NCBI RefSeq assembly: GCF_000024365.1
Contig: NC_013235.1
Span: 2,046,001-2,110,000 of the forward strand
From: Nakamurella multipartita DSM 44233
GTDB taxonomy: Bacteria > Actinomycetota > Actinomycetes > Mycobacteriales > Nakamurellaceae
Length of the DNA stretch: 64,000 nt
Direction: 5' to 3'
Shown here: positions 33,058-58,182 of the stretch, one piece after another
Position numbering within the stretch: the stretch's first letter is position 1
Layout of the letters: the number at the start of each line of letters is the position of its first letter
Program-made: the position numbers and the translations under genes
The notes under the pieces: generated by a model
What the model saw: only the letters and a program-made list of their open reading frames with translations
What the model was told of the DNA's origin: nothing
Databases searched by the model: none

Positions 33058-33750
33058 ATGCAGACCGGTTCATCTTTCGGGCAGCCGGCGGGCCAGCGCT
33101 CCGGATCCACCGGCCGGGCCACCGGCCCGGATCCGGTGGCGACCTACGTGTACGCCGGAGACCCGATCTCGCAGGCCGGCGTGATCAGCCAGCTGCGGCA
33201 ACGGGCCGAGATCCGGGTGGTCGACGCCGAGCACCTGGGTGAGGCCGTGGTGGCGGTGGTGGTCGCGGACGGCCTCACCGACGAGGTGCTGCGGGTGCTG
33301 CGGGCGCTGCAACGCGGGTCGATCCCGCGCACCGTGCTGGTCGCCCGGGTGATCGACGACTCGACCCTGGTGGCGGCGGCCGAGGCCGGGGTCGGCGGCC
33401 TGCTGCGTCGCGGCGACGCGACGCCCGATTCACTGGCCCGAGCCATCCTGCGGGTCGCCGCCGGCGAGGGAGAGGTGCCGCCGGATCTGCTGGGCCGGTT
33501 GCTCGGCCAGGTCGGGCGCCTGCAGCGTCAGGTGCTCGCGCCGCGCGGGCTGGCGTTCTCCGGGTTGTCCGACCGGGAGGCCGAGGTGCTCAAGCTGGTG
33601 GCCAACGGTCACGACACCGCGGAGATCGCCGGCCGGCTGTCCTACAGCCAACGCACCGTCAAGAACATCCTGCACGACGTGACCACCCGGTTGCAGCTGC
33701 GCAACCGGTCGCACGCCGTCGCGTACGCGGTCCGGGAAGGACTGATCTGA
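33058..33750 (+). CDS. LuxR-family regulator at head of eCIS locus
   Basis: A 230-residue transcription factor. The C-terminal LuxR/FixJ helix-turn-helix spans about 168-228 (LSDREAEVLKLVANGHDTAEIAGRLSYSQRTVKNILHDV). The N-terminal half resembles a response-regulator receiver (ATYVYAGDPISQAGVI...), but the acidic pocket is reduced to a single Asp and the usual KP is replaced by LLRRGDATP, so control by phosphorylation is doubtful. No kinase gene is adjacent. GGGGAGG lies upstream of the ATG. Its place at the start of the co-directional eCIS block suggests it controls the block. Confidence 0.88.
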   Translation: MQTGSSFGQPAGQRSGSTGRATGPDPVATYVYAGDPISQAGVISQLRQRAEIRVVDAEHLGEAVVAVVVADGLTDEVLRVLRALQRGSIPRTVLVARVIDDSTLVAAAEAGVGGLLRRGDATPDSLARAILRVAAGEGEVPPDLLGRLLGQVGRLQRQVLAPRGLAFSGLSDREAEVLKLVANGHDTAEIAGRLSYSQRTVKNILHDVTTRLQLRNRSHAVAYAVREGLI

Positions 33751-33868
33751 ACCGGTTCGCACCGGCTCCGGGGCGCCGGGGCCGGTGCCCCTTCGGGCAG
33801 CCGGGCCTGCCCGGCCGGCTGTCCGCGGTTGCGTTTACTGCACCGACGGCAGGCGGGACAGTGGTCAG

Positions 33869-34756
33869 GTGATCCACGAGGTCGATGTTGCGCTGCGCTC
33901 ACTCATCGAGCGCGAGGCGACCGCGGGCACCGAGGTCGAGGTGGTGTTCGATGCCCCGACCAAGGACTGGGCCGGCCGGCGCAACGTGCCCACCATCGAC
34001 GTCTACCTCTACGACATCCGGGAGGATCTGCGTCGGCGCGAACGTGGGCTGATCAACGAGTACGACGACCGGGACCGGGTGCGGACCCGGCACCTGCCGC
34101 CGCGGCATTTCAAGCTCTCCTACCTGGTGACGGCCTGGACGCAGCGCCCCGAGGACGAGCACCGCCTGCTCTCGGCCCTGCTGTCCTGCTTCCTGCGGCA
34201 CGACGCCATCCCGGGCGAGTTCCTCACCGGGCCGCTGGCCGAGGTCGGGCTGCCGGTGCCGGTGACCGTGGCCCTGCCGCCCCCGGAGGACCGATCGTTC
34301 GCCGATGTCTGGTCGGCGCTGGGTGGCGAGCTCAAGCCGTCGCTGGACATCGTGGTCAGCGCCCCCACCGAGACCGGGCAGCAGTACCACGCCGGCCCCC
34401 CGGTGGTGCAGCCGCCGACGATCTCGTTGGGCGGCACCGAATCTCGCGGCGACGGCGCCCTGTGGCCGCCGCGCGAGGACCGCCAGCACCTGGCCGGTCC
34501 TGGCTCGGACGCCTCAGACGACTCGGGCGGCCCGGACGGCTCGGACGGCTCGGGCGGCTCGGGCAGGTCGACTGGGTCGGGCCGCCGGACCGGATCGGAC
34601 GCGGCGGGCGCCGGTCGAGCCTCGACGTCGGGCCTGTCCTGGCAGGAACTGGCCGGCTCGGGTCGCCGCAGCGCGGAGTCCGGCCCCGCACCGGCCGGCA
34701 CCGAGACCAAGGCCAAGCCCCGCCGTCGCCGCGCCGGTGGGATCGACCAGAAGTGA
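33869..34756 (+). CDS. DUF4255 (Pvc16/Afp16-like) tail-terminator protein
   Basis: A 295-residue protein whose first 190 residues match DUF4255 (Pvc16 N-terminal domain): VIHEVDVALRSLIERE, TIDVYLYDIREDLRRRE, FKLSYLVTAWTQRPEDEHRLLS. Homologues cap the end of the contractile tail and fix tube/sheath length. The last 100 residues are a Gly/Ser/Asp-rich then basic tail (SDGSGGSGRSTG, KPRRRRAGGIDQK), an unusual extension likely to be disordered. The GTG at 33869 is chosen because upstream codons are Arg/Pro-rich and unconserved. The next gene starts 19 bases downstream. Confidence 0.88.
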   Translation: MIHEVDVALRSLIEREATAGTEVEVVFDAPTKDWAGRRNVPTIDVYLYDIREDLRRRERGLINEYDDRDRVRTRHLPPRHFKLSYLVTAWTQRPEDEHRLLSALLSCFLRHDAIPGEFLTGPLAEVGLPVPVTVALPPPEDRSFADVWSALGGELKPSLDIVVSAPTETGQQYHAGPPVVQPPTISLGGTESRGDGALWPPREDRQHLAGPGSDASDDSGGPDGSDGSGGSGRSTGSGRRTGSDAAGAGRASTSGLSWQELAGSGRRSAESGPAPAGTETKAKPRRRRAGGIDQK

Positions 34757-34774
34757 GCCGGCGGTGAGGATCGG

Positions 34775-36871
34775 GTGAGCGCGGCGGGCAATCAGGACCG
34801 GGCCGGACTGGCTTACCTGCTGGGTCGGGTCGGCCTGGTGGAGGACCGGATCAGGGTGCTGGTGCAGAATCGCCGGGCCGACGACCCGGCCCCGGACGAC
34901 CCGTTCCGCGGGCTGTACGTCACCGACGAGGTGGTCGAGAAGTTGCTGGCCCCGGCGGCCGCCCCGCCGCGGGCGGACGGCGCCGCGCGGGAGCAGATCG
35001 AGACGCAGGCCGACGCGGCCGAGGCCGATGGGGCGCGGATCCGGCTGCGCCGGCTGGCCGCCGAGGCCGGGCTCACCGCCCTGGACACCGAGATCCTGGT
35101 CATCGCCCTGGTGCCCGATCTGGACAGCCGGTTCGAGAGGCTCTACGGCTACCTCAACGACGACGTGACCCGGCGGCGAGCCACCATCGGTCTGGCGTTG
35201 GTGCTGGCCGACGCGGCCCCGGCGTCGTCGGCGGCCCGGTCCCGGCTGCTGCCCGGGGGGCCGTTGGTCGACCGATCGCTGGTCGTGCTCGACGACGCCG
35301 ACCGGCCGTTCCTGACCCGGGCCATCCGGGTGCCCGACCGGGTCGCCGCCCACCTGCTCGGCGACGACGCGGTGGACCCGACCCTGCTCGGCATCGTCAC
35401 CGATCCGGTGCCCTTCCCGGGCGAGCGATCCGGCCAGTTGGCCCGGGCTTTGCAGGTCGGGCAGTCGCTGGTCTACGTGCGCGAGTCCGGCGCCGGAATC
35501 GGACCGTCGGTGGCCGCCGCCGCGCTGCAGGCGGCCGGCCGCCCGGTGCTGGGTGTCGAACTGTCCCGGCTCGCGCTCGGCCGGGACCCGCGGGAGACGG
35601 TGACCGTGCTCGGTCGGGAGGCGTTGCTGCGCGGGGCCGGGGTCGTCGCCGGGCCCGTCGAGGCGCTCACCGACCACCCGGAGGCGCTGCGGATGCTGGC
35701 CGAACTGCCGGTGCCGGTGGCTTTGGTCGGCCGGGTCAACTGGGATCCCAGCTGGACCGAGAAGGTGCCGTTGCTGCTGGACGCGGGCACGCTGACCCCG
35801 ACCGACCGGATCGAGTTGTGGTCCACCCAGCTGGCCGGCCGGTCCGGGGCGGGAGCCGACCCGGTGTCGCTCGACCCGGCCTCGATCCCGGCCCATTTCG
35901 TTCTCGGCCCGAACCAGGTGGCCCGCGCGGTCGCCGCGGCCGCGGCCTCGGCCGCGTTGGACGGGGGTGTGCTGACCGCCGATGACCTGCGGCGGGGCGC
36001 CCGGGCGCAGAACGCGGCCGGCCTGGAACGGCTGGCCCGACGGACCGAACCGGCGGTCGGCTGGGACGACATCGTGCTGCCGGACGCGGCCCGGGGGCAG
36101 CTCCGCGACCTGGCCGCCCGGGCCCGCAACCGCGACCGGGTGCTGGTCGAGTGGCGGATGCGGCTCGGCGGTGGCCGCGGGCGTGGGGTGACCGCCCTGT
36201 TCGCCGGGGACTCGGGCACCGGCAAGACGATGTCGGCCGAGGTCATCGCCGGGGAACTCGGTCTGGACCTGTATACGGTCAACCTGGCCACCGTCGTCGA
36301 CAAGTACGTGGGGGAGACCGAGAAGAACCTGGAACGGATCTTCTCCGAGGCCGGCGGGGTCAACGCGGTCCTGCTGTTCGACGAGGCCGACGCGATCTTC
36401 GGCAAGCGCAGCGAGGTTCGCGACGCGCACGACCGGTACGCCAACATCGAGAGCGCCTACCTGCTGCAGCGGATGGAAACCTTCGACGGGCTGGCCATTC
36501 TGGCCACCAACCTGCGCTCCAACATCGACGACGCGTTCACCCGCCGGCTCGACATGATCATCGACTTCCCGGCCCCCGACGAGCGGTCCCGGCTGTCCAT
36601 CTGGCAGCACTGCCTGCGCCCGCCGGTGCCCGTCGAGGACGGCCTGGACCTGGAGTTCTGCGCCCGCTCCTTCACCATGTCCGGTGGCAACATCCGGTCG
36701 GCGGCCACCACCGCTGGCTACCTGGCCGCGGGGGCGGACAAGTCGATCGGCATGGCGGAGCTGATCGCCGCGATCGCCGCCGAGTACCGCAAGATGGGCC
36801 GGCTGGTCCTGGAACGGGAGTTCGGGCCCTACCTGACCAAGCTGCCCGCGCCCGGGGTGCCGGCTCGATGA
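34775..36871 (+). CDS. AAA+ ATPase (Afp15/Pvc15-like)
   Basis: A 698-residue ATPase. The C-terminal AAA+ module (about 440-690) has Walker A in FAGDSGTGKTMSAEVIA, Walker B VLLFDEADAIFGKRS, sensor 1 ILATNLRSNIDDAF and the arginine-finger region FTRRLDMIIDFP. The N-terminal 430 residues form an inactive-looking first domain (LTALDTEILVIALVPDLDSRFERL). Homologues in Afp/PVC loci are needed for assembly or for loading of cargo. The GTG start follows GGTGAGGA. Confidence 0.93.
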   Translation: MSAAGNQDRAGLAYLLGRVGLVEDRIRVLVQNRRADDPAPDDPFRGLYVTDEVVEKLLAPAAAPPRADGAAREQIETQADAAEADGARIRLRRLAAEAGLTALDTEILVIALVPDLDSRFERLYGYLNDDVTRRRATIGLALVLADAAPASSAARSRLLPGGPLVDRSLVVLDDADRPFLTRAIRVPDRVAAHLLGDDAVDPTLLGIVTDPVPFPGERSGQLARALQVGQSLVYVRESGAGIGPSVAAAALQAAGRPVLGVELSRLALGRDPRETVTVLGREALLRGAGVVAGPVEALTDHPEALRMLAELPVPVALVGRVNWDPSWTEKVPLLLDAGTLTPTDRIELWSTQLAGRSGAGADPVSLDPASIPAHFVLGPNQVARAVAAAAASAALDGGVLTADDLRRGARAQNAAGLERLARRTEPAVGWDDIVLPDAARGQLRDLAARARNRDRVLVEWRMRLGGGRGRGVTALFAGDSGTGKTMSAEVIAGELGLDLYTVNLATVVDKYVGETEKNLERIFSEAGGVNAVLLFDEADAIFGKRSEVRDAHDRYANIESAYLLQRMETFDGLAILATNLRSNIDDAFTRRLDMIIDFPAPDERSRLSIWQHCLRPPVPVEDGLDLEFCARSFTMSGGNIRSAATTAGYLAAGADKSIGMAELIAAIAAEYRKMGRLVLEREFGPYLTKLPAPGVPAR

Positions 36872-36950: not shown

Positions 36951-37319
36951 ATGTCGGACTCACCGGTGGGCCCTTATCAGGAGCTCGGACGGCACCCCGG
37001 CATCCGTCGGGCCGTGCAGGAATTCTACGAACGGATCGCCGCCGACCCGTCGCTGGTCGAATACTTCGCCGACGCCGATATGGACCGCCTGCGTCGCCAC
37101 GTGGTGGAACTGCTGGCCGCCGCGGTCGGCGGCCCCGGCCAGTACACCGGCCGCACGATGGCCAAGGCCCATCAAGGCCTGCACATCACCGACGAGGCCT
37201 TCGACCGGGTGCTCGGACACCTCAACGCGGCCCTGGTCGACGTCGGCGCGGACGACCGGACCATCCGCGAGGTGCTGCGCGCCCTGTCCGGCATGCGGAT
37301 GGACATCGTGCAGGAGTGA
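36951..37319 (+). CDS. Truncated haemoglobin
   Basis: A 122-residue globin of the 2-on-2 fold, related to group I/GlbN. It shows YQELGRHPGIRRAVQEFYERIAADPSLVEYF with the conserved helix A-B region, DMDRLRRHVVELLAAAVGGPGQYTGR with the Gly-Gly hinge, and AKAHQGLHIT with the proximal His candidate. Such proteins bind O2 and NO and often detoxify NO. It sits between the AAA+ ATPase and the membrane protein of the eCIS locus with about 80 bases on the upstream side, and ends at its own terminator, so it may be a separate unit. Confidence 0.9.
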   Translation: MSDSPVGPYQELGRHPGIRRAVQEFYERIAADPSLVEYFADADMDRLRRHVVELLAAAVGGPGQYTGRTMAKAHQGLHITDEAFDRVLGHLNAALVDVGADDRTIREVLRALSGMRMDIVQE

Positions 37320-37352
37320 GAAAGCGGCGGGGCCGTCGCCACCGGCGGTCCG

Positions 37353-37369: not shown

Positions 37370-37478
37370 GGCTTTCGTCATTTTCCCCGTCCGGATGTCC
37401 GGGTCTGCGTCATGATCTCTCCTGAGCGATGTGCGCCCGGTTCGGGACGCGGCGAACGGGCACCGGCGTGGAGGGGCG

Positions 37479-40265
37479 ATGGACGAGGTCATCTGTCAGC
37501 AGTGCGGAACCCGGAACGAGCCGGGCACCGAGTTCTGTGTCGAGTGCCAGTCCTACCTGTCCTGGACCGAGACCCGGGAGACCAGCCTGGCCCAGCTGCA
37601 GGCCGATGCGGCGACCGGCACCGACCCCGCGCCGGCGACCGATCCGGCCACCGTCGCCGCCACTGACCCGACCCCGACCCCGACCCCGACGGCGACCCCG
37701 ACGCCGACGCCGGATCCCGTTCCGGTCGTCCGCGCCGACCCGCCGGCCGGCGCGCAGCCGGCCACCCGCCCGCAGCCGGCCACCCGCCCGCAGCCGTCCA
37801 CCCGGCCGCAGCCGGCGGTCGAACCGGTGCGCGCGGTCATCGACCCGGCCGCCGCCGAGGTCGTGCCGGGTGGCGACGTGGAAACCCTCGAGGTCCAGGT
37901 CTACAACCTCTCGCCGATCGTCGACGCCTACCGGATCTGGGCCCCGGACGCGCCGGACTGGCTGACCGTCTCCGAACAGGAGGTCCGGCTGCTGCCGGGC
38001 ACCAATGATCGGACCGCGGTCACCCTGCGCATCGCCGGCGGCCGATTGGTGCCCGCCGGGGTCAGCACCCTGGTCATCCGGGTGCAGTCCGTCGCCCATC
38101 CCGAGATCACCGTCGACCACGAGATCGCGCTCACCGTCCCGGGCATCGAGGTGCCCTTGATGCTGCGGCTCGAGCCGAGCATCGTGCGGGCGCGGGACGA
38201 CCAGCCCGGCCAACTGCAGGCCGTCGTCGACAACTCCACCGGCAACCAGGCCCGGCAGGTGACGCTGACCGGGCGTGACCCGGAGGGGCTGGTCCGGTTC
38301 TTCTTCTCACCGGCGGTCCTGGACGTCCCGGCCGGCGCGACCGCGGCCGCCGGCGTCCGGGTCGAGGCGCCCACGCCCGACCCCGGGCAGACCGCGACCA
38401 GACAGCTGACCATCGCCGCCACCGACGGCGACGAGCAGGTGACCGCGACCGCGACGTTCATGCAGACGGCCACGCAGGAAGCCCCGCTGGCCCTGCGGAT
38501 CGAACCCACCCTGGTGCGGGTCCGGGACACCGACACCGGTCAGCTCGAGGTGGTCATCGACAACCGAGGTGGCCTGCGCACCCGACGGGTGTTCCTGGGC
38601 GGCCGGGACCCGGAACGGATCGTGCACTTCGCCTTCGCGCCACCGTCGCTGGACGTGCTCGCCGGCGAGACCGGGACCGCCCGGTTGCGGATCGAGGCGC
38701 CGCCGCCGGCCGCCGGCCAGGAGGTCTCCCGCTCGTTCACCGTGCTGGCCACCTCACCCGGCGTCCCCGACCTGGAGGCCCCGGCAACCTTCGTGCAGGC
38801 GACATCCGCGGCGCCGACGGATGTTCCGTTGACCCTGCGGCTGGATCCGACCATCGTGCGAGTCCGGGACAGCACCAGCGGGGCCCTGGAACTGCTTATC
38901 GATAACCGCGCGGGACACCGCTCCCGGCGCGTGTTCCTGTCCGGTCGGGACCCGGAACGGCTGGTCCGCTTCACCTTCACGCCGCCGTCGCTGGACGTGC
39001 TGGCCGGTGAGATCGGCCAGGCCCGGGTCCGGGTCGAGGCGCCGCTGCCGGACTTCGGGCAGGAGGCCACCCGGCAGATCACCGTGGTCGCCTCGGAGGG
39101 CGTGGGTCGCAACGGTCCCCGGGAGATCGAGGTCGCCGGCTCGTTCGTGCAGACCCGGGCGCCCAAGCCGGTGGAGGTGCCGGTCGCCGTCAAACTCGAA
39201 CCGAGTCTGGTGCGGGTGCGGGACACCCCGAACGCCCAGTTCCAGGTCATCGTGGACAACCGTCGGGGCACCCGGCCCAAGCGGATCACCCTGGCCGGGA
39301 CCGATCCCGAACGGGCGATCGGCTTCTCGTTCTGGCCGCCGGTGGTCGACGTCGCCCCCGGCCAGATCGCGCGGGCCCAGGTCCGCATGGAGGCCTACCC
39401 GCCGGAGCCGGGCCGCGACAGCACCCGGCCGTTCACCGTGACCGCCGCGGACGGCACCACCGAGCAGGAGGTGGAGGGCTCCTTCGTCCAGGTCACCTCG
39501 CCGCCGCCACCCGATGAGCCGATGACCATCCGGCTGGAGCCCAGCGTCCTGCGAACCCGTAACCGGCGCAGCGCGTCGGCGACCGTCATCGCCGACAACC
39601 GCGGCGGGTCACGGCCGCGCCGGGTCCAGTTCCGCGGGCACGATCCGGAACGGGCCGTGCGCTTCGCCTTCGACCCGCCGGTCATCGACCTAGCCCCGGG
39701 GCAGAGCGGGGCCGCGCGGGTGCAGATCTCCGCGCCGCGCCCGGACGGTGGCGAGGAGGTGACCCGCCCCTTCACCGTCGCCGCGACCGACGGGGCGAAG
39801 GAGACCGAGGCCACCGGCAGCTTCATCCAGGAGTCCAGCGACTGGCGGCCGGTCTGGCGGGCGATCCTGACCCTGCTCGGCGGCGCCCTGATGATCGCCG
39901 GCGTGTTCATCCCGTGGAGCGCCGGCCCGGCGCTGCGCGGGATCGACTTCACCGCCACCGAGGTCGACGACCTGTCCGAGCAGTTCCAGCTGATCGAGCT
40001 GCCCGACGTGGTCCGCCAACCGTTCGCCTCGGCCGGGGCGGTGATCGTCGTGCTGGCGATCATCGCCATGATCGGCCTGTTCGGGCCCAAGGGCCGGCTC
40101 AGCCGGTGGGCGGCCGCGATCGGGGCAGTGATCGCCGCCGGCTTCCTGGTCTCCGCGGCCGTCGGCGTGGTCGCGGTCGCCCGGGTGGACGTGGGGTCGT
40201 TCGTGGTGCTGCTGGGGTGCGCGTGCGCGTTCATCGGCGGCTACCTGGCCCCGAAACGGGGGTGA
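37479..40265 (+). CDS. Zinc-ribbon/Ig-like repeat membrane protein in eCIS locus
   Basis: A 928-residue protein with clear modular structure. Residues 6-23 form a zinc ribbon (CQQC and CVEC). A Thr/Pro repeat linker follows (about 60-115), then a beta-rich domain and five repeats of about 113 residues starting near 228, 338, 452, 570 and 683. Each opens with LRLEPTIVRVRD-like sequence and contains RRVFLSGRDPERLVRF and PPSLDVLAGE. The C-terminal 140 residues hold about four hydrophobic segments (LLGGALMIAGVFIP; VIVVLAIIAMIGLF; AAGFLVSAAVGVVAVA; VVLLGCACAFIGGYLA). It could tether the particle to the cell membrane, like the Streptomyces CIS membrane protein CisA, but this is inference. Confidence 0.82.
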   Translation: MDEVICQQCGTRNEPGTEFCVECQSYLSWTETRETSLAQLQADAATGTDPAPATDPATVAATDPTPTPTPTATPTPTPDPVPVVRADPPAGAQPATRPQPATRPQPSTRPQPAVEPVRAVIDPAAAEVVPGGDVETLEVQVYNLSPIVDAYRIWAPDAPDWLTVSEQEVRLLPGTNDRTAVTLRIAGGRLVPAGVSTLVIRVQSVAHPEITVDHEIALTVPGIEVPLMLRLEPSIVRARDDQPGQLQAVVDNSTGNQARQVTLTGRDPEGLVRFFFSPAVLDVPAGATAAAGVRVEAPTPDPGQTATRQLTIAATDGDEQVTATATFMQTATQEAPLALRIEPTLVRVRDTDTGQLEVVIDNRGGLRTRRVFLGGRDPERIVHFAFAPPSLDVLAGETGTARLRIEAPPPAAGQEVSRSFTVLATSPGVPDLEAPATFVQATSAAPTDVPLTLRLDPTIVRVRDSTSGALELLIDNRAGHRSRRVFLSGRDPERLVRFTFTPPSLDVLAGEIGQARVRVEAPLPDFGQEATRQITVVASEGVGRNGPREIEVAGSFVQTRAPKPVEVPVAVKLEPSLVRVRDTPNAQFQVIVDNRRGTRPKRITLAGTDPERAIGFSFWPPVVDVAPGQIARAQVRMEAYPPEPGRDSTRPFTVTAADGTTEQEVEGSFVQVTSPPPPDEPMTIRLEPSVLRTRNRRSASATVIADNRGGSRPRRVQFRGHDPERAVRFAFDPPVIDLAPGQSGAARVQISAPRPDGGEEVTRPFTVAATDGAKETEATGSFIQESSDWRPVWRAILTLLGGALMIAGVFIPWSAGPALRGIDFTATEVDDLSEQFQLIELPDVVRQPFASAGAVIVVLAIIAMIGLFGPKGRLSRWAAAIGAVIAAGFLVSAAVGVVAVARVDVGSFVVLLGCACAFIGGYLAPKRG

Positions 40266-40270
40266 GCGCG

Positions 40271-40302: not shown

Positions 40303-40412
40303 GCCCCTCTGGTCGTCCGGTTGACCCCTGTCCTCGCCCGGTGCGCGGTGGGACGATCGAGGAGTCGACGGCGCCTGCACCGGATCAGTTGCGCCACGGG
40401 AGGGACGAGCCA

Positions 40413-41189
40413 ATGCGAACCCACGACCATGACACCGAGGACGCCACCCTGCGGCCCAAGTCGTCCCGGGTCGACGCCGCCCCGCCGGCCCACCTGCTGC
40501 AGGCCGCGGCCGCCGGCCGTAGCGACATTCTCGACGGCGCCGGTGTTCTCGGGTTGCAACGAGCGATCGGCAACGCCGGTGTCGGGGCCCTGCTGGAGTC
40601 CGAGCCGCCGCAGGAGACCCGCTCGCCGGTGCACGACGTCGTCAACTCCGGCGGCGGCAGCCCGCTCGCGCCCGACCTGCGTGAGGAGATGCAGGGGCGC
40701 CTGGGTCACGATTTCTCCGATGTGCGGGTGCACACCGACTCGGCCGCCCACGATTCGGCCAAGGCGGTCAACGCCCACGCCTACACCGTCGGCTCGAACG
40801 TCGTGTTCCAGCGGGACAAGTATGATCCGTCCTCCGTCGAGGGCAAGACGATGCTCGCGCACGAGCTGACCCACGTCGTCCAGCAGCGCAGCGGGCCGGT
40901 CGACGGCACCGACAGCGGCGGCGGCATCAAGGTCAGCGACCCGTCCGACCGGTTCGAGCGGGAGGCGTCCGCGAACGCCGACCGGGTGATGTCCGACCCG
41001 GCCCCGGCTCAGTCCACGGGCCAGTCCGCCGGTCCGGCCACCGCGACCGCGCAGCGGCACGAGGAGGACGAGACCGTTCAGGGTGCGTTCGTCCAGCGCG
41101 AGGAAGCCCCCGAGGAGGAGGAGCAGACCGCCCAGGGCTCGTTCGTCCAGCGCGAGGCCGAGGAGGAAGAGGCGGCCGAGGAAGCCTGA
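40413..41189 (+). CDS. DUF4157 (eCIS core domain) protein
   Basis: A 258-residue protein. The N-terminus carries the motif VLGLQRAIGNAGVGALL (about residues 46-62), seen in eCIS-linked proteins. The DUF4157 domain (about 80-170) has GSPLAPDLREEMQGRLGHDFSDVRVHTDS and MLAHELTHVVQQRSG with HExxH. The C-terminus is very acidic with two copies of a QGAFVQRE/QGSFVQRE motif. DUF4157 proteins are the marker of this eCIS group and are thought to act in cargo loading or release. GGGAGGGA lies upstream of the ATG. It is followed after 11 bases by the candidate cargo gene. Confidence 0.9.
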   Translation: MRTHDHDTEDATLRPKSSRVDAAPPAHLLQAAAAGRSDILDGAGVLGLQRAIGNAGVGALLESEPPQETRSPVHDVVNSGGGSPLAPDLREEMQGRLGHDFSDVRVHTDSAAHDSAKAVNAHAYTVGSNVVFQRDKYDPSSVEGKTMLAHELTHVVQQRSGPVDGTDSGGGIKVSDPSDRFEREASANADRVMSDPAPAQSTGQSAGPATATAQRHEEDETVQGAFVQREEAPEEEEQTAQGSFVQREAEEEEAAEEA

Positions 41190-45296: not shown

Positions 45297-45371
45297 GACG
45301 ATCAGGATGCGCATCGGTGCGGGGGCTCGGCGGCGCGTTTCGCTGTTCACTCATCGCATCCGGGGGGCCGC

Positions 45372-47730: not shown

Positions 47731-48174
47731 ATGGCTCTGCCAGATCTCGACAGCTCGGTCGGCCATTCCTTCGGCCTCGAGGTCGACGGCATCACCATCA
47801 AGTCCATCACCGAGGTGTCTGGGCTGAAGATGGAGCAGGACGTCATCGAGCTCAAGCAGAACGGGCCCGACGGCAAGTACATGATCAAGAAGCTGCCCGG
47901 CCGGTGGAAGTCGGGCGAGGTCACCCTGACCCGCCCGCTCACCTCCGATCAGAGCTTCGAGAAGTGGGTCAAGGACTCGCAGTTCGGCAAGATGAGCGAC
48001 GTCCGCAAGGGTGGCGCGGTGATCGTCTACGACTACGAGGGCAACGCGGTCAAGCGGTACAAGTTGACCGCGGCCTGGCCCAAGAGCCTGGAGATCGGTT
48101 CGCTCAAGGCCGGTGACACCAGCGTGCTCACCGAGAAGCTGGTCGTCACCTACGAGCGGCTCGAGGTCGAGTAA
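47731..48174 (+). CDS. Inner tube protein 1 (T4 gp19-like)
   Basis: A 147-residue tail tube protein of the Hcp/gp19 fold, which stacks as hexameric rings inside the sheath. The pattern GHSFGLEVDGITIKSITEVSGLKME, LPGRWKSGEVTLTRPL and EKLVVTYERLEVE is characteristic. It follows the sheath gene, and its stop overlaps the start of the next gene (TAATG). Confidence 0.94.
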   Translation: MALPDLDSSVGHSFGLEVDGITIKSITEVSGLKMEQDVIELKQNGPDGKYMIKKLPGRWKSGEVTLTRPLTSDQSFEKWVKDSQFGKMSDVRKGGAVIVYDYEGNAVKRYKLTAAWPKSLEIGSLKAGDTSVLTEKLVVTYERLEVE

Positions 48175-48650
48175 TGCGCCGCGGTTTCTCGGGGTCGTCC
48201 GCCGCAACCTTGGATCCCGTCCAGGGTTCGGCGAGTCCCGATCCGGCCGGCTCGCCCCCGCCCGCCCGGCCCCCGGAGCAGGGGCTGCGTACCGAGTTCA
48301 GCTTCATCCTGCCCCGCGGGTACAAGGACGGCTCGGGCACCGTGCACCGCGACGGGGTGATGCGGCTGGCCACCGCCCGCGACGAGCTGGTGCCGTTGCG
48401 GGACGACCGGGTCCGGGAGAACCCGGCCTACCTCACGGTCGTGCTGCTGGGCCGGGTAGTCACCCGGATCGGCACCATCGACGACGTGCACGCCGGCATC
48501 ATCGAGAACCTGTTCGCCTCGGATCTGGCTTTCCTGCAGGACCTGTACCGGCGGATCAACCAGGAAGGCCATACCCGGGCCGCGGTGAGTTGCCCGGCCT
48601 GCGAGCACCAGTTCGCCGTCGACGTCGCGGGTGGGCGCCTGGGGGAATAG
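48174..48650 (+). CDS. Small eCIS protein with CxxC motif
   Basis: A 158-residue protein. After a Pro/Ser-rich leader (about 1-40) comes a globular domain starting RTEFSFILPRGYKDGSGTVHRDGVMRLATARDE and a CPACEHQF zinc-type pair near the C-terminus. Its position after the tube gene matches the tail-assembly chaperone or baseplate-linked genes of other eCIS and phage loci. It is coupled to the tube gene by a one-base overlap and to the next small gene by a shared G. The exact function is unknown. Confidence 0.75.
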   Translation: MRRGFSGSSAATLDPVQGSASPDPAGSPPPARPPEQGLRTEFSFILPRGYKDGSGTVHRDGVMRLATARDELVPLRDDRVRENPAYLTVVLLGRVVTRIGTIDDVHAGIIENLFASDLAFLQDLYRRINQEGHTRAAVSCPACEHQFAVDVAGGRLGE

Positions 48651-48808
48651 TGACGTACGCGCCCGACCGTCTCTACGAGGAGGTCGCGTACATCGCCTAC
48701 CACTTTCACTGGCCGCTCGACGATCTGCTCGACCTGGAGCATCGCGAGCGGCAACGCTTTGCGCATGAGATCGGGATGATCAACAAACGGATCGATCGAG
48801 GGAGGTGA
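48650..48808 (+). CDS. DUF6760-like small protein
   Basis: A 52-residue protein: TYAPDRLYEEVAYIAYHF, then HWPLDDLLDLEHRERQRF. It starts at a GTG overlapping the stop of the preceding gene by one base. Small proteins of this pattern are conserved beside the tube genes of actinobacterial eCIS and may be the second product of a tail chaperone pair. The large disordered-protein gene begins three bases after its stop. Confidence 0.8.
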   Translation: MTYAPDRLYEEVAYIAYHFHWPLDDLLDLEHRERQRFAHEIGMINKRIDRGR

Positions 48809-51805: not shown

Positions 51806-51858
51806 CCCAGAACCCGACACCACCGACCCCCACCAGCGAGAACCAGGAGGCGATCCGC

Positions 51859-52293
51859 ATGGCCGAGATGAAGGATCCCGCCGTCAGCGTGTGTTTCAAG
51901 GTCAAGATCGACGAGTTCCCGCTGGGCATGTTCAACAGCTGCGAGGGACTGGGTTGCGAGATCGTCCTGGAACAGCGGGAGGAGGGCGGCAACAACGCGA
52001 TGATCTGGCAGCTGCCCACCCGGATGAAGTTCACCAACGTCAAGCTGTCCCGGCCGATCGGCGAGGACAGCAAGCACCTGACGAGCTGGTTCGCCAGCAT
52101 GATGAGCGGGGTCAAGCCGACCACCATGGTGATCTCGGCGATGACCGCCGACGAGACCGTGGTGGCCGAATGGTCCTTGCACGGCGTCATTCCCGTCCGT
52201 TGGACCGGCCCGAGCCTGAACCTGGACACGGCCAAGGTGGCCACCGAGACGCTCGAGGTCGCTCACCACGGCATCCTGCCGGGCGGTGCCTGA
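51859..52293 (+). CDS. Inner tube protein 2 (Afp5-like)
   Basis: A 144-residue tail tube-type protein. The core KVKIDEFPLGMFNSCEGLGCEIVLEQREEGGNN and the C-terminal WTGPSLNLDTAKVATETLEVAHHG match the Afp5/Pvc5 tube initiator, which links the tube to the baseplate. AGGAGG lies upstream of the ATG. The stop overlaps the start of the LysM gene (TGATG). Confidence 0.92.
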   Translation: MAEMKDPAVSVCFKVKIDEFPLGMFNSCEGLGCEIVLEQREEGGNNAMIWQLPTRMKFTNVKLSRPIGEDSKHLTSWFASMMSGVKPTTMVISAMTADETVVAEWSLHGVIPVRWTGPSLNLDTAKVATETLEVAHHGILPGGA

Positions 52294-53063
52294 TGACCGG
52301 GTCCTCGCTCAGCGGCGCCGGCGGCAAGCCGACCGCGCCCTCGCCGACCGGCGACTCCGCGCCGCAGAAGGTGGAGAAGGCCAAGCTGACGATGTACGAG
52401 TCGTCGCCGGCCACCGGCGGGCGCAAACTCGACGCCGAGATCGGCACCATCGAGTTCCAGTTCAACCCCAAGGAACTGACCATCGCCAAGAAGGCGAAGT
52501 GGGAGAGCAAGTCCACCAACGGGGCCAAGGCGGCGCCGCCGCCCGAGTTCAAGGGCCCCGAACCCGGCCAGTTGAGCCTGGAGATGTTCTTCGACGCCAC
52601 CGCCAAGCACGACGGATCGGTGGTCGAGGCGGTGGACAAGCTGTTCTCCTGCTGCACCCCGACCGACAAGACGCACGCCAACAACAAGCCGATGCCGCCG
52701 CTGGTCGTCTTCCAGTGGGGGGCGATCAAGAGCTTCCCGGCCTACGTGACCCAGGTCAGCGCCAAGTACACGCTGTTCACACCGGAGGGCACCCCGATCC
52801 GGGCGCTGTGCACGGTGACGCTGCAGGAGATGCCCCAGCAGAAGGGCAAGCAGAACCCGACGTCGGGATCCATTGCCGCCCGGAGCATCCACCGCGTCGT
52901 CACCGGCGACACGCTGGCCTCCATCGCCTACCGCGAGTACGGCGATCCCACCCTGTGGCGGCCGCTGGCCCACTTCAACCGGGTCGACGACCCGGCCCGG
53001 CTGCCGCTGGGCAGTGTGCTGATGCTGCCCAGTGCCTCGGAACTGCTGGACCCGGTGACCTGA
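52293..53063 (+). CDS. LysM-domain baseplate hub protein (Afp7-like)
   Basis: A 256-residue protein. The main domain has AEIGTIEFQFNPKELTIAKKA and FFDATAKHDGSVVEAVDKL, as in tail connector proteins. The C-terminal LysM-like module is HRVVTGDTLASIAYREYGDPTLWRPLA. In Afp/PVC the equivalent bridges tube and spike. It overlaps both neighbours by one base. Confidence 0.92.
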   Translation: MTGSSLSGAGGKPTAPSPTGDSAPQKVEKAKLTMYESSPATGGRKLDAEIGTIEFQFNPKELTIAKKAKWESKSTNGAKAAPPPEFKGPEPGQLSLEMFFDATAKHDGSVVEAVDKLFSCCTPTDKTHANNKPMPPLVVFQWGAIKSFPAYVTQVSAKYTLFTPEGTPIRALCTVTLQEMPQQKGKQNPTSGSIAARSIHRVVTGDTLASIAYREYGDPTLWRPLAHFNRVDDPARLPLGSVLMLPSASELLDPVT

Positions 53064-54883
53064 TGGCGCCCACCTCGTCCAGCTTCCTGGTCGACATCGA
53101 CGGCTCGCCGCTGGCCGCCGACGCCAAGGCACTGCTGGTCTCGGCGATCGTCGACGACAGCCTGCGGCTGCCCGACTTCTTCCTGCTCCGCTTCCGTGAT
53201 CCGGACCGGTTGGTGATCACCAAGTCCGGCGCCAAGATCGGGTCCAAGGTCAAGGTCAGCGTGGCCACCGACGCCGCGCCCAGCCCGTTGCCGCTGATCG
53301 AGGGGGAGATCACCGCGCTGGAGGCCGAGTACGACGCCACCGGCACCTACACCGTCATCCGCGGCTACGACCAGGCCAACCGGCTCTTCCGGGGCCGGCG
53401 CACCGAGTCCTACACCCAGAGCACCGCCTCGGACGTGGCCACCAAGGTGGCCCAGCGGGCGGGGCTGTCCATCGGCGAGGTCGAGTCGACCAGCACCGTC
53501 TACGAGCACCTGTCCCAGGGCGGGGTCACCGACTGGGAGTTCCTGGACGGCCTGGCCCGCGAGATCGGCTACGAGATCGCCGTCAAGGACGGCAAGTTCG
53601 ACTTCCGCAAGCCGAAGAAGGCCGACACCGCCCCGGCCGGCGGCGGGGGACCGGAGCAGCAGAACCCGTTGGTGCTGCGGCTGGGTACCGACCTGCTGCG
53701 GTTCCGGTCACTGATCACCGCGGCCGAGCAGGTCAAGGAGGTGCAGGCCCGCGGCTGGGACCTGGCCCAGAAGAAGGCGTTCGTGGCCACCGCGCCGGCC
53801 GCGACCACCTCGGCCGTGCTGCCCGCCTACAACCCGGTCGACATCGCCAAGAAGTTCGGCGATCCGGTCTACGTGGCCACCGATGTCGCCTACCGCAGCC
53901 AGGCCGAGGTGGACAGCGCGGCCGCGGCCATCGCCGAGCAGATCGCCGGTGCCTTCGCCGAGTTCGAGGGTGTCGCCCGGGGCAATCCGAAACTGCACGC
54001 CGGGGCGGCGATCTCGGTGGACAACGTGGGGGCCCCGTTCGACGGGAAGTACACCATCACCTCCTCCCATCATCGCTACGACCCGAACACCGGCTACACC
54101 ACGATGTTCTCGGTCACCGGCCGCTCGGAACGCAGCCTCTACGGGCTGGCCAACGGCGGTGGTGGCGGCAAGCTCGGGCAGGGGCCGGTCGTCGCGCAGG
54201 TCAGCGACGCCAAGGACCCGCTGGAACAGGGCCGGGTCAAGCTGACCTTCCCCTGGTTGTCGGACACCTATGTCAGCGACTGGGCCCGCACCGTGCAGCC
54301 GGGGGCCGGCAAGGACCGGGGGGCGCTGGTGCTGCCCGAGGTCGGCGACGAGGTGCTGGTGCTCTTCGAGCAGGGCGACATCCGCCGGCCCTACGTGCTC
54401 GGTGGCCTGTTCAACGGAGTGGACACCGCACCCAAGGGCAAACCCGACCTGATCGACGGCAGCTCCGGAGCGATCAACCGGCGCTCGTTCGTCTCCCGCC
54501 GCGGTCACCGCATCGACCTGATCGACGAGGACGGCCGGACCGAGGGCATCACGCTGTCCACCACCGGCGACAAGCTGCAGCTCAAGCTGGACTCGGTCGA
54601 GACCAAGATCACCGTGCACAGCGACGGCAAGATCCTGATCGAGGGCAAGGGCGGCGTGCTGATCGACTCGGCCAGCAGCAAGCTCGAACTCAAGGGCGGC
54701 GAGGTCTCGATCACCTCCACCAGCGGGGTCAAGATCGACGGCGGCAGCGGTGGGGTGGACGTGCAGACCAACGGCCAACTCTCGCTCAAGGGCAGCACCG
54801 CCAAGCTGGAGGGTCAGGCCAGCGCCGAGGTCAAGGCCAGCGGCGTGCTGACCGTCCAGGGTTCCCTGGTCAAGATCAACTGA
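53063..54883 (+). CDS. VgrG-like spike protein (Afp8-like)
   Basis: A 606-residue hub/spike. The N-terminal gp27-like part covers about 1-360 (FFLLRFRDPDRLVI, DWEFLDGLAREIGYEI). The gp5-like OB domain has GRVKLTFPWLSDTYVSDWARTVQPGAG and GDEVLVLFEQGDIRRPYVLGGLFNG. The C-terminal beta-helix has short repeats such as KLELKGGEVSITSTSGVKIDGG. It trimerises under the PAAR tip. A 15-base tandem duplication lies at its stop codon. Confidence 0.95.
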   Translation: MAPTSSSFLVDIDGSPLAADAKALLVSAIVDDSLRLPDFFLLRFRDPDRLVITKSGAKIGSKVKVSVATDAAPSPLPLIEGEITALEAEYDATGTYTVIRGYDQANRLFRGRRTESYTQSTASDVATKVAQRAGLSIGEVESTSTVYEHLSQGGVTDWEFLDGLAREIGYEIAVKDGKFDFRKPKKADTAPAGGGGPEQQNPLVLRLGTDLLRFRSLITAAEQVKEVQARGWDLAQKKAFVATAPAATTSAVLPAYNPVDIAKKFGDPVYVATDVAYRSQAEVDSAAAAIAEQIAGAFAEFEGVARGNPKLHAGAAISVDNVGAPFDGKYTITSSHHRYDPNTGYTTMFSVTGRSERSLYGLANGGGGGKLGQGPVVAQVSDAKDPLEQGRVKLTFPWLSDTYVSDWARTVQPGAGKDRGALVLPEVGDEVLVLFEQGDIRRPYVLGGLFNGVDTAPKGKPDLIDGSSGAINRRSFVSRRGHRIDLIDEDGRTEGITLSTTGDKLQLKLDSVETKITVHSDGKILIEGKGGVLIDSASSKLELKGGEVSITSTSGVKIDGGSGGVDVQTNGQLSLKGSTAKLEGQASAEVKASGVLTVQGSLVKIN

Positions 54884-54898: not shown

Positions 54899-54904
54899 TG
54901 GGAC

Positions 54905-55195
54905 GTGACGCAGATGCCACCAGCTGCCAGGGTCGGTGACCCGACCGGGCACCCCGGCGTCATCGGGCCGCCCGGGGTGCCGACGGTGCTGATCGCCGGC
55001 ATGCCCGCGGCCACCGTGGGCACCCCGCACATCTGCTCGTTCCCGCCGCCGGCGGTGCACCCGCCGACCGCCATCGTGCCGCCGGGCTGCCCGACGGTCC
55101 TGATCGGCGGGCTGCCCGCGGCCCGGATGGGCGACCTGTCCGCCTGCGGGGCACCGATCGTCGTCGGCGCCCCGACCGTCCTGATCGGAGGATGA
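54905..55195 (+). CDS. PAAR-domain spike tip protein
   Basis: A 96-residue PAAR protein that caps the spike. It has repeated VxVGxP/VLIGG turns (AARVGDPTGHPGV, VLIAGMPAATVGTPHIC, VLIGGLPAARMGDLSACG) and His/Cys residues for the single metal at the tip. The GTG at 54905 and ATG at 54914 are both possible starts. It follows the spike gene by 21 bases. Confidence 0.93.
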   Translation: MTQMPPAARVGDPTGHPGVIGPPGVPTVLIAGMPAATVGTPHICSFPPPAVHPPTAIVPPGCPTVLIGGLPAARMGDLSACGAPIVVGAPTVLIGG

Positions 55196-55198
55196 GCA

Positions 55199-55696
55199 GT
55201 GGGCATCGATTCCCGAGTTGACTTCGTGGGCGCCGGCTGGGCGTTCCCGCTGACCACCGACGCCACCGGCGGGGTCGCCCTGGTCGTCCGCGAGCAGGAG
55301 ATCGAGGAGGCCATCCGGCTGATCCTGGCGACCGCGCCGGGGGAGCGGCCGATGCGTCCCGAGTTCGGCTGCCGGGTGCACGACCACTTGTTCGCCCCGA
55401 TCAACGCCTCCACCGCCGGGGCCATCGCCTCCGACGTGCGCTACGCGCTGGAGATGTGGGAGCCGCGGATCACCGTGCACGACGTGCTGATCAGCTTCGA
55501 CCAGGCCGACCTGGGCACGCTGTACATCGACATCCACTACTCGATCCGCGGCATCAACGATCCGCGGAACCTGGTCTTCCCGTTCTACGTGATCCCGGAC
55601 GAGCCCGACTCGGCGGCGGTCACGGGTCCGTCGTTCGCCCCGGCCTCCCTGCCGGCCATTCCCGCGGCCCTGGCGGCCGCCGAGCGGAGGGCCTGA
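55199..55696 (+). CDS. Baseplate wedge protein, gp25-like (Afp9-like)
   Basis: A 165-residue GPW/gp25-family protein with lysozyme-like fold that joins the sheath base to the baseplate. It shows EIEEAIRLILATAPGERPMRPEFGCRVHDHLFAP and RDVRYALEMWEPR-like sequence (SDVRYALEMWEPRI). The GTG start is three bases after the PAAR stop. Confidence 0.94.
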   Translation: MGIDSRVDFVGAGWAFPLTTDATGGVALVVREQEIEEAIRLILATAPGERPMRPEFGCRVHDHLFAPINASTAGAIASDVRYALEMWEPRITVHDVLISFDQADLGTLYIDIHYSIRGINDPRNLVFPFYVIPDEPDSAAVTGPSFAPASLPAIPAALAAAERRA

Positions 55697-55699
55697 ACC

Positions 55700-57643
55700 A
55701 TGGTGCTGCCCGCGCCCAACCTGGACGACCGGCACTTCCAGGACCTCGTAGACGACGCCAAACGCCTGGTCCAGCAACGGTGCCCGGAATGGACCGACCA
55801 CAACGTCTCCGATCCCGGGGTCACCCTGATCGAGGCGTTCGCGCAGATGGTCGACCAGTTGATCTACCGGCTCAACCGGGTGCCCGACCGCCACTACATC
55901 AAATTCCTGGAGCTGATCGGCGTCGAGTTGCGGCCGCCGGCCGCGGCCCGGGGCAAGGTCACCTTCTGGCTGTCCGCGCCGCAGCCGCAGACCGTCGTCG
56001 TGCGGCGGGAGACCGAGGTGGCCACCCCCCGCACCGATGTCGCCGACCCCGTCGTCTTCTCCACGATCAAGGACCTGGACATCGTGCCCTGCTCGTTCGA
56101 GCGGGCCGGGGCGATGGCGGCCGGCGGGGAGGCGGTCGATCACAGTGTGGCCCTGCGTTCGGGCGGCGAGTTCGAGTGCTTCCAGAGCTCGCCGCAACCC
56201 GGCGACTGCCTGCTGATCGGCCTGTCCAATGCGGTGCCGTCCTGCGCGATCGTGCTCCGGATGGACTGCCGGGTCCGCGGTGTCGGCGTCCGGCCGGACT
56301 GGCCGCCGCTGATCTGGGAGGCCTGGACCGGCTCGGGCTGGGCGCCGTGCGACGTCGACCGGGACGACACCGGCGGCATGAACAAGGCCGGCGACGTCGT
56401 GCTGCACGTCCCCGAGACCCACGAGACCTCCATCCTGGCCCGCAACCGGGCCGGCTGGATTCGCTGCCGGCTGCTGGAACCCGAGGAAGGTCAGCCGACC
56501 TACACCGCGTCCCCGCGGATCCTGTCGGTGTCCGCGTTCACCATCGGCGGGACCGCCCGGATGGTGCACGCGCAGGTCGTGCGCAACGAGGACCTGGGCG
56601 TGTCCGACGGCACCCCGGGGCAGCGGTTCGCCCTGCAGCGGCGCCCGGTGGTGCCCTGGGAGGAGCCGGGGGTGCTGCAGGTCATCGACGACGACGGCGT
56701 CGCCGAATGGGCGCCGGCCGAGCACTTCGCCGAGGCCGACCCGGACGAGAAGTGCTTCCACATCGACGCGTTCGCCGGCGAGGTGCAGTTCGGGCCGGCG
56801 GTCCGGCAGGGTGACGGCACGCTGCGCCAGTACGGTGCGGTGCCGCCCAAGGGGGCGCACCTGCGGTTGTCGGTCTACCGCACCGGTGGCGGGGTGCGCG
56901 GCAACATCGCCACCGGCCAGGTGCGGGTGCTCAAGACCAGCGTGCCCTACGTCGCCCGGGTGGAGAACCGGACGCCGGCCGTCGGCGGCGCCCGGGCCGA
57001 GGACATCGAGGACGCCAAGCTCCGGGGGCCGCTGGTGCTGCGTTCCCGGGGGCGAGCGGTCACCGCCGAGGACTACGTCGAGCTGACCAAGCAGGTCGCG
57101 CCGGAGATCGCCCGGGTGCACTGCCTGGGCGTGGACGGCGGCGGCGTCCGGGTGCTCGTGGTCCCGTTCGTGGCCACCGACGAGGTCGGCCGGATCCGCC
57201 GCGACGACCTGGCCCCGCTGCCCGAATCGCTGTCCCGGATCGCCGGGTACCTGGACGAGCGCCGGCTGGTCGGCACCCGGCTGGTCATCGAGCCGCCGGA
57301 GTACCAGGGGGTCACCGCGGTGATCAGCGTGCGGGCCCGCGCCCGGTACCGGCCCGAGGAGGTCCGCAAGGAGGTGCTCACCGCGATCTACCGGCTGTTC
57401 GACCCGCTGCACGGCGGTCCGGAAGGCACCGGCTGGCCGCTCGGCCGGGCCGTCCAGGCGCACGAGGTGAACGCGACCCTGGCCCGCATCCCCGGGGTGG
57501 ACATGGCCGAGGAGGTCAACGTCCAGCTCTTCCCGGCCGACGCCGCGACCGGCCGGCGCGGGTCGTCGGCGCAGCGGATCCCGTTGGCGCCCACCGCCTT
57601 GGTGTTCTCCTACGAGCATCAGGTCCGGGTCCGGGGCACCTGA
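55700..57643 (+). CDS. Baseplate J-like protein (Afp11-like)
   Basis: A 647-residue baseplate assembly protein. The N-terminal CPEWTDHNVSDPGVTLIEAF is the conserved gp6/J signature, and the C-terminal half contains SRGRAVTAEDYVELTKQVAPEIARVHCLG. It forms the wedge that triggers contraction. It overlaps tail protein I by one base (TGATG). Confidence 0.94.
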   Translation: MVLPAPNLDDRHFQDLVDDAKRLVQQRCPEWTDHNVSDPGVTLIEAFAQMVDQLIYRLNRVPDRHYIKFLELIGVELRPPAAARGKVTFWLSAPQPQTVVVRRETEVATPRTDVADPVVFSTIKDLDIVPCSFERAGAMAAGGEAVDHSVALRSGGEFECFQSSPQPGDCLLIGLSNAVPSCAIVLRMDCRVRGVGVRPDWPPLIWEAWTGSGWAPCDVDRDDTGGMNKAGDVVLHVPETHETSILARNRAGWIRCRLLEPEEGQPTYTASPRILSVSAFTIGGTARMVHAQVVRNEDLGVSDGTPGQRFALQRRPVVPWEEPGVLQVIDDDGVAEWAPAEHFAEADPDEKCFHIDAFAGEVQFGPAVRQGDGTLRQYGAVPPKGAHLRLSVYRTGGGVRGNIATGQVRVLKTSVPYVARVENRTPAVGGARAEDIEDAKLRGPLVLRSRGRAVTAEDYVELTKQVAPEIARVHCLGVDGGGVRVLVVPFVATDEVGRIRRDDLAPLPESLSRIAGYLDERRLVGTRLVIEPPEYQGVTAVISVRARARYRPEEVRKEVLTAIYRLFDPLHGGPEGTGWPLGRAVQAHEVNATLARIPGVDMAEEVNVQLFPADAATGRRGSSAQRIPLAPTALVFSYEHQVRVRGT

Positions 57644-58182
57644 TGACCCGAGGATTGGTGCCCGGGCTGGCCAGCCCGTACCCGATCGGCGCGACGCTGC
57701 CGGCGGTGTTCCTGGGCGACTCGTTCACCCAGCGCTGGTGCGCGGCGCTGGACGAGGTGCTCGCGCCGATCATCACCACCCTGGACTCACTGCCCGCCTA
57801 CCTCGACCCGGCCACCGCGCCCGAGGACATGCTGCCGTGGCTGGCCGGGTGGATGGGCATCGCCCTGGACGGGCACCAGAGCGCCGAACGGCAACGGGAA
57901 CTGGTCCAGATCGGGGTCGAGCTGCTGCAGTGGCGGGGCACCGCCCGGGGGATCCGGGCCGCCGTCCGTGCCCTGTTTGACCTGGACCCGGAGCTGATCG
58001 AGTCGGGCGGCACGGGTCAGTCCACCGAACCCGGCAGCGCGCTACCCGGCACCGATCAGCCGGAGTTGATGGTCCGGCTGCGGGTGCCGAACCCCGAGGA
58101 ATTCGACGTGCGCCGGCTGGACGCGCTGGTGGACATGGCCAAGCCGGCGCACATCCCGCACCGGGTCGAGATCACGGGGTGA
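57643..58182 (+). CDS. Phage tail protein I-like (Afp12-like)
   Basis: A 179-residue protein of the P2 gpI/tail protein I group. The segments FTQRWCAALDEVLAPIITTLDSLPAYLDP, MLPWLAGWMGIALD and ELLQWRGTARGIRAAV are typical. It is the last structural gene of the eCIS locus and its stop is only 20 bases from the stop of the convergent SARP-type regulator. Confidence 0.92.
   Translation: MTRGLVPGLASPYPIGATLPAVFLGDSFTQRWCAALDEVLAPIITTLDSLPAYLDPATAPEDMLPWLAGWMGIALDGHQSAERQRELVQIGVELLQWRGTARGIRAAVRALFDLDPELIESGGTGQSTEPGSALPGTDQPELMVRLRVPNPEEFDVRRLDALVDMAKPAHIPHRVEITG

Follow-up and report, generated by a model that had tools for sequence, protein, structure and literature searches.

Here we describe a contractile injection system (CIS) gene cluster of Nakamurella multipartita DSM 44233 that has probably kept a phage-type module for setting particle length. 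The cluster was analysed within a window of 64,000 nucleotides, positions 2,046,001-2,110,000 of a single-contig 6.06-Mb genome (NC_013235.1), and the coordinates below are those of the window. It is a single plus-strand cluster between smc (28303-31947) and a minus-strand regulator gene with AAA and BTAD domains (58202-61306). To judge from its genes, it is a real and complete CIS, far beyond what chance would give, and a class IId system of the kind known from Streptomyces coelicolor (CISSc) and Streptomyces lividans (SLP). As a whole, the cluster adds a member to a known kind; what is newly noticed is the length module, made up of a tail assembly chaperone, a DUF6760 open reading frame (ORF) that extends it in the -1 frame, and a long low-complexity protein in the tape-measure slot.

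48174..48650, plus strand: tail assembly chaperone, 0 frame (phrog_508 tail assembly chaperone, E 4.4e-5)
48641..48647, plus strand: putative heptamer for -1 frameshifting, GGGGGAA (75 of 82 loci have it at this position)
48650..48808, plus strand: DUF6760 ORF, P2 gpE-like, -1 frame extension of the chaperone (Pfam DUF6760, E 8.4e-14; P2_GpE, E 0.004, below cut-off)
48652..48694, plus strand: possible stimulatory hairpin, 48652-48661 with 48685-48694 (from pairing, covariation and folding z)
48812..51805, plus strand: low-complexity VQR-motif protein of 997 residues in the tape-measure slot, candidate ruler or lumen scaffold (from slot position, VQR and a C-terminal motif)

The chaperone, the DUF6760 ORF and the 997-residue protein had gone unnamed in the original prediction, an earlier reading of this DNA from its letters alone. 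Our comparisons draw on the best 80 of 221 relatives confirmed in a scan with one genome per species; their sheath identities range from 63% to 75%. These 80 named loci come from other genera (76 actinobacterial, three Chloroflexi and one labelled Acidobacteriota), and many are incomplete, the ATPase being visible in 65. The same cluster also stands in two genomes of the same genus, G004 and G010, with sheaths 84% and 82% identical to that of the window.

Frameshifting between the chaperone and DUF6760 very probably takes place, since register, heptamer and codon use are conserved across loci. The 86 sequences supplied gave 83 usable pairs, and DUF6760 lies in the -1 register to the chaperone in 82 of these, the exception being locus L078. 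GGGGGAA stands at the chaperone end in 75 of the 82 and is read GGG GAA in all 75; elsewhere in the same genes, glycine is encoded by GGG in 264 of 833 cases and glutamate by GAA in 80 of 659. Across our ORF set, the heptamer occurs at 41 of 49 chaperone ends and at one of 1126 other ORF ends. The possible hairpin downstream has 88.9% of cells paired in an alignment of 64 sequences (the distinct ones among 75), with a covariation of 0.082 against 0.043 in shuffles, an excess that relatedness alone can produce without structure, and folding 40 of the 75 loci gave a mean z of -2.05.

The G/GT proteins of lambda and E/E' of P2 are examples of chaperone frameshifting in phages. The arrangement here is likewise one of two overlapping ORFs in -1 register between a tube gene and the tape-measure slot, with the actinophage heptamer GGGGGAA; it differs in standing in a bacterial CIS and in that the shift is putative, being read from sequence. 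Excerpts of the literature describe phage chaperones as lying between the major tail protein and the tape measure and as made in two forms through frameshifting (PMC3091744), give GGGGGAA as the fivetwo motif in all of the roughly one thousand cases in the actinophage data of PRFect, and place a predicted -1 site with GGGGGAA in corynephage phi16. By analogy, ribosomes finishing the chaperone would slip back one base at GGGGGAA and yield a longer chaperone-DUF6760 fusion, and both forms would coat the product of the slot gene, which would act as a ruler or lumen scaffold inside the tube.

The slot itself is consistently occupied. In 61 of the 80 named loci both flanking genes lie on the plus strand (the other 19 were left out), and in all 61 a long open frame, taken as the longest from stop to stop, directly follows the chaperone pair and covers at least about 70% of the slot, with lengths of 407-1330 residues and a median of 860. 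The encoded proteins abound in Pro, Ala, Ser, Thr and Gly, a composition from which alone their disorder is judged. In near relatives the N-terminus shows some conservation; a widespread C-terminal motif scores E < 0.01 in 65 of 70, or in 43 of 48 once the 22 that seeded the profile are set aside. Searches of Pfam, NCBIfam and PHROG with the slot protein of the window gave no tape-measure family and no Pfam family above cut-off. From position and conservation, we put the chance that this protein is a ruler or lumen scaffold only a little short of even.

This bears on a puzzle in the published record. Excerpts of the papers on S. coelicolor and S. venezuelae report a typical tape-measure gene as absent (PMC12237407, PMC10066040), and an excerpt of the S. 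lividans paper reports likewise for SLP (PMC10286715); despite this, the S. coelicolor particles analysed were all of one length (PMC12237407, PMC10066040), and one of these papers states the uniform length and the missing gene together (PMC12237407). In contrast to those clusters, which are known here from the papers alone, the slot gene is present in the window, and it is also found in three Streptomyces-family plasmid clusters, whose slot proteins hold 7, 20 and 0 [VIL]QR motifs. A slot gene with a likely frameshift signal could explain the uniform length of particles said to lack a ruler, and makes the length question directly testable through that gene. Among the matches listed in open-licence full text, we found no description of a frameshift or of the VQR motif in a CIS, and frameshift terms appeared only in reference titles.

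The VQR motif links the slot protein with other genes of the cluster. VQR was observed 374 times in 62 slot proteins against 10.5 expected and is present in 57 of them; no other tripeptide with 40 or more occurrences is as strongly enriched. For the broader [VIL]QR, the enrichment is about 28-fold among slot proteins and 20-fold among DUF4157 proteins, with none in sheath, tube 1 or chaperone; there is also an excess of about four-fold in baseplate J, ATPase and LuxR proteins and about two-fold in whole cargo proteins. The 43 DUF4157 proteins with a clear domain have no [VIL]QR inside it, while 42 carry at least one before and 42 at least one after. Cargo proteins concentrate the motif towards the start, with 24 of 30 occurrences (22 proteins) within the first 250 residues. 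An extended form, LQRxxGNxxV, is present in 13 of the 22 cargo proteins, and a survey of 1175 ORFs found it in 23 DUF4157 proteins, 12 cargo proteins and five others. Unclassified ORFs with this extended form, possibly further cargo, are L036:8172-9215, L037:1-567, L086:850-3237, L088:2651-5929 and L100:2662-6108.

Slot proteins into which a DUF4157 domain is fused have 0-2 [VIL]QR motifs (five proteins, or eight with three hand-picked from Deinococcus), against a median of nine in the other 62. The difference gives P values, which ignore kinship, of 2.6e-5 for the eight, 5.7e-4 for the five and 0.0017 when the near twin L050 is also removed; two of the three Deinococcus proteins lie after the second tube. 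We tentatively propose that VQR, common to the slot protein and the DUF4157 adaptor, is a docking site. It is possible, on a reading that we hold with reserve, that class IId CIS do have a tape measure, namely a disordered VQR protein under a phage-type chaperone frameshift, and that the motif on DUF4157 and on the cargo N-terminus ties loading to the ruler. If so, one short peptide code would organise the tube lumen and be lost where DUF4157 is fused into the slot protein, and the motif would offer a simple handle on cargo recognition in this large class. In Deinococcus grandis, a tube domain, a Pro-rich stretch and a DUF4157 domain stand together in a single ORF (L145:17675-21454).

The particle genes around the module are the following; several starts were chosen by us within longer open frames, and from the overlapping listed ORFs 51441-53063 and 52286-54883 the LysM and VgrG genes were taken as 52290-53063 and 53063-54883.

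33058..33750, plus strand: LuxR-type (GerE) regulator (Pfam GerE, E 4.7e-13; matches 87% and 72% identical in the G004 and G010 clusters)
33785..34756, plus strand: Pvc16-type cap protein (Pfam Pvc16_N, E 5.6e-46; best solved match 9gts, E 1.1e-62)
34775..36871, plus strand: Pvc15-type AAA ATPase with winged-helix domain (Pfam WHD and AAA)
46137..47693, plus strand: sheath (Pfam; best solved match 8bky of S. coelicolor, E 8e-211)
47731..48174, plus strand: inner tube (Pfam gp19, E 1.3e-29)
51859..52293, plus strand: second tube protein, tube initiator (Pfam gp19, E 8.4e-27)
52290..53063, plus strand: CIS_tube/LysM hub protein of Cis7 type (Pfam CIS_tube, E 3.1e-32)
53063..54883, plus strand: VgrG spike (Pfam Phage_base_V, E 1.7e-26)
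54905..55195, plus strand: PAAR tip (Pfam PAAR, E 9.5e-20)
55199..55696, plus strand: gp25 baseplate wedge (Pfam GPW_gp25, E 1e-25)
55700..57643, plus strand: baseplate J, Cis11 (best solved match 9gtp, E 4.5e-225)
57643..58182, plus strand: Tail_P2_I wedge, Cis12 (Pfam, E 9.1e-14; best solved match 9gtp, E 5.8e-43)

The original prediction had seen the core genes of an extracellular CIS in order, and profile searches bear this out, with all of them on the plus strand and the sheath, tube and baseplate families matching as CIS. The whole class IId set is present: sheath, two tubes, hub, spike, gp25, J, Tail_P2_I, Pvc16 and AAA ATPase. We assign the cluster to class IId because the S. coelicolor particle gives the best matches to its sheath, J, Tail_P2_I and Pvc16 proteins, and because of its relatives. 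For these four proteins, the ones covered by the solved-structure comparison, the top matches are all S. coelicolor CIS chains (E 4.5e-225 to 5.8e-43), closeness here meaning the best match and not a place in a tree; the PDB codes 8BKY, 8BL4, 9GTP and 9GTS belong to that particle. The prediction of a system lacking a recognisable tail fibre agrees with what was seen, in that Pfam, NCBIfam and PHROG scans of the cluster matched no conventional fibre family, a novel fibre type being outside their reach; excerpts of the S. coelicolor papers likewise report none (PMC12237407, PMC10066040).

In this absence of a matched fibre family the cluster resembles CISSc and SLP, and, like SLP, it encodes DUF4157 and a large cargo ahead of the sheath. 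A PAAR gene is present here, and according to excerpts of the published accounts it is absent from SLP and S. coelicolor and present in S. venezuelae. The cluster is further set apart from CISSc and SLP by the insertion of a globin and a sunset-domain gene, and, unlike in those systems, no plus-strand gene occupies the CisA position after the last baseplate gene.

The chaperone-DUF6760 junction could be explained without a frameshift if DUF6760 were translated by stop-start coupling and GGGGGAA were a ribosome binding site. A GTG or ATG is indeed found in 72 of the 82 loci, between three codons before and two after the first DUF6760 residue, and the G-run lies just upstream of that start. However, the start of DUF6760 has no ATG, GTG or TTG in the other 10 loci, eight of which have CTG and two none of these either, and in seven of the 10 there is no ATG, GTG or TTG from 12 codons before to 20 after. 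Furthermore, 43 of 44 chaperone stop-start overlaps have a G-run in front, compared with 13 of 368 other overlapping junctions, and the invariable GAA in the 75 heptamers is hard to reconcile with coupling, as GAG should pair with the ribosome equally. We regard coupling as rather improbable. Several observations nevertheless weigh against a conserved phage-type frameshift: the position of the heptamer is taken by other sequences in seven of the 82 loci, RNAalifold predicted no pairs in a consensus structure after the heptamer, and homology to phage chaperones is weak, at the E values listed above for phrog_508 and for P2_GpE, with no tblastn match of the chaperone in 50,697 phage records. The heptamer is also missing from a second CIS of the same genome and from three plasmid CIS of other phyla (two Deinococcus and one Haloferax).

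The slot protein, in turn, might be a Tme-like carrier of cargo or effectors, with length set otherwise, and we rate this as a real possibility, short of a probable one. A DUF4157 domain occurs in cis in five of 67 slot proteins outside Deinococcus, and an excerpt of PMC11126660 describes Tme of S. davawensis, a DUF4157 effector related to tape measures, as encoded just upstream of the baseplate genes. Against a carrier, the slot protein of the window has no NCBIfam or PHROG match besides its lack of a Pfam family above cut-off, and a slot frame is found in 61 of 61 loci examined, compared with a cargo trunk in 21 of 80. A ruler has its own difficulties. The frame varies from 407 to 1330 residues across loci, tandem repeats inflate the VQR count in some of them, and five of the 62 non-fused slot proteins have two or fewer [VIL]QR motifs, that of Streptomyces cadmiisoli having none. 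An S. coelicolor triple mutant of Sco4256-4258 is reported to have mostly empty tubes in otherwise normal particles, which is awkward for a ruler that fills the lumen. For the cluster as a whole, the possibility of a prophage remnant is negligible: its tail genes are of phage origin, but capsid and terminase families were not found among the window genes scanned, and the sheath is 26% identical to the top-listed phage match. Along the lines of the original prediction, an unusual accessory block of 9 kb between ATPase and sheath might make the CIS a new variant. This is unlikely. No match in the CIS loci and genomes searched was found for the globin, for the sunset lipoprotein or for the C-terminus of the cargo, and of the block only the first two and an HNH-like stretch look local; relatives, however, also carry the DUF4157 protein, the cargo trunk and the membrane protein, so that most of the block is not unusual, and the closest relatives of the globin in three genomes of the genus stand beside another kind of gene. 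A class IId CIS that keeps a phage-type length module is the explanation that we prefer.

Such a particle is, as the best inference, cytoplasmic or membrane-docked, because its four compared parts match the cytoplasmic particle of S. coelicolor best. Going by published relatives, particles would assemble free in the cytoplasm, the DUF4157 adaptor would load cargo into them, a protein with zinc ribbon, immunoglobulin (Ig)-like repeats and transmembrane segments would dock them at the cell's own membrane, and they would fire under stress. The original prediction had reached the same location from the membrane and lipoprotein genes, of which the sunset lipoprotein gives no evidence of docking, since its domain also occurs in a genome of the genus (G007) that has no match to the CIS cap gene and the lipoprotein is unmatched in the 80 CIS loci. 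The genes concerned with cargo and docking are:

~37476..40265, plus strand: membrane protein with a zinc ribbon at the N-terminus, Ig-like repeats in tandem and hydrophobic segments towards the C-terminus (Pfam FixG_C above cut-off, zinc-ribbon families below theirs)
40341..41189, plus strand: DUF4157 (eCIS_core) protein, Sle2-like (Pfam eCIS_core, E 2.6e-32; [VIL]QR motifs outside the domain)
41201..44995, plus strand: Sle1-like cargo of 1264 residues (trunk at about residues 107-899, orphan C-terminal domain at about 970-1261)

The call of a large candidate cargo was well founded, the Sle1-type trunk being matched in 21 of the 80 named loci and in G004. Judged by its layout, the pairing of DUF4157 with a large coiled-coil cargo, both encoded ahead of the sheath, corresponds to the published arrangement of Sle1/Sle2 and is already known; an excerpt of the S. 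lividans work describes this layout with a reconfigurable C-terminus (PMC13277306). The likeness, drawn by layout to a pair known here from its description, comprises an adjacent DUF4157 protein and large cargo, a conserved trunk and a variable C-terminus. The difference is that the C-terminus in the window (44072-44995) matches nothing convincing, and that an immunity gene was not identified. Its last 291 residues had no match in 396 other genomes of the order, in searches that, here and across the phylum, scored only a handful of candidates per genome; a weak match in one of 395 other genomes of the phylum was dismissed as chance, lying antisense to an ORF that we take by eye to be a two-component kinase. 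Both G004 and G010 clusters hold the membrane protein and DUF4157. The G004 cargo shares the trunk (residues 116-899, 47%) and differs in its C-terminus; in G010, DUF4157 stands directly before the sheath, and the cargo is unmatched in its 40-kb stretch. In place of the C-terminus seen in the window, the G004 cargo (L015:12927-16868) ends in a pattern with HAE and PCPSC that we presume, by eye, to be deaminase-like.

The membrane protein may do the job of CisA, as a membrane adaptor with a cytoplasmic N-terminus. Hydropathy marks segments at residues 796-814, 850-868 and 875-902, and a strict pattern finds four Ig repeats here, two in G004 and three in G010, with one more each by eye. Near full-length relatives occur in four of the 80 loci (L032, L058, L075 and L077) and partial matches in more. 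Its Ig part matches a 'hydrolase' (E 3e-7) and a 'hydrolytic protein' (E 3e-4) encoded beside Streptomyces-family CIS genes. For its zinc ribbon, there is a weak match to a protein in the CisA position (E 0.005 over 27 residues). Excerpts of two papers describe a related layout for Sco4256-type proteins (PMC10020575, PMC10066040), to which we liken it by that description. It differs from the CisA/Sco4256 family in uniting tandem Ig repeats and several hydrophobic segments in one protein, in which the CisA C-terminal domain was not seen.

The remaining accessory genes appear to be local.

36951..37319, plus strand: group 1 truncated haemoglobin, HbN-like, local insertion (Pfam Bac_globin, E 3.6e-22; best solved match HbN, E 8.2e-24)
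45049..45420, plus strand: supposed HNH remnant, unconfirmed (no Pfam match at E 5; DNA at a single place in its own genome)
45372..46016, plus strand: Ala-rich lipoprotein with C-terminal sunset domain, local insertion (NCBIfam sunset, E 8.8e-11)

The haemoglobin gene of the original prediction is real, yet we found no link between it and a CIS elsewhere. It is unmatched in the 80 named loci and in the G004 and G010 clusters, and its closest relatives in the genus (in G006, in G008 and at two places in G015) each adjoin a gene that we take by eye to be a flavohaemoglobin, relatives of which stand elsewhere in the genome of the window. On these grounds, the idea that the globin is a conserved part of CIS was rejected for the loci searched; to judge from its relatives, the gene appears to have been relocated, and we found no support for a role as a nitric oxide or oxygen sensor before firing. 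The sunset lipoprotein is likewise unmatched in the G004 and G010 clusters, and its candidacy as an immunity protein or anchor found no support. The genes for the globin and the sunset lipoprotein were most probably inserted later, with no part to play in the CIS. The HNH remnant did not hold up: no Pfam family matched even at E 5, and the claim comes down to a short HNH-like string read by eye, and the stretch is unmatched in the G004 and G010 clusters and in the 80 named loci.

Between smc and the CIS (28303-33058) we found one small Ser-rich lipoprotein-like ORF. The gene that usually comes next after smc is ftsY; it was not seen in this interval, and the cluster therefore looks inserted. 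A minus-strand ORF nearby (25827-27101) has a weak integrase core domain, below the Pfam cut-off. At the other end, the AAA and BTAD regulator that adjoins the cluster has 1034 residues, and BTAD regulators also occur in and beside the plasmid CIS of S. clavuligerus. The second CIS of the same genome (G000:C1, about 1,116,000-1,172,000; L020-L023) is divergent, with a sheath 46% and an ATPase 40% identical to those described here. It includes two very large ORFs, of 1522 and 2332 residues, the shorter of which matches the Ig protein of the window.

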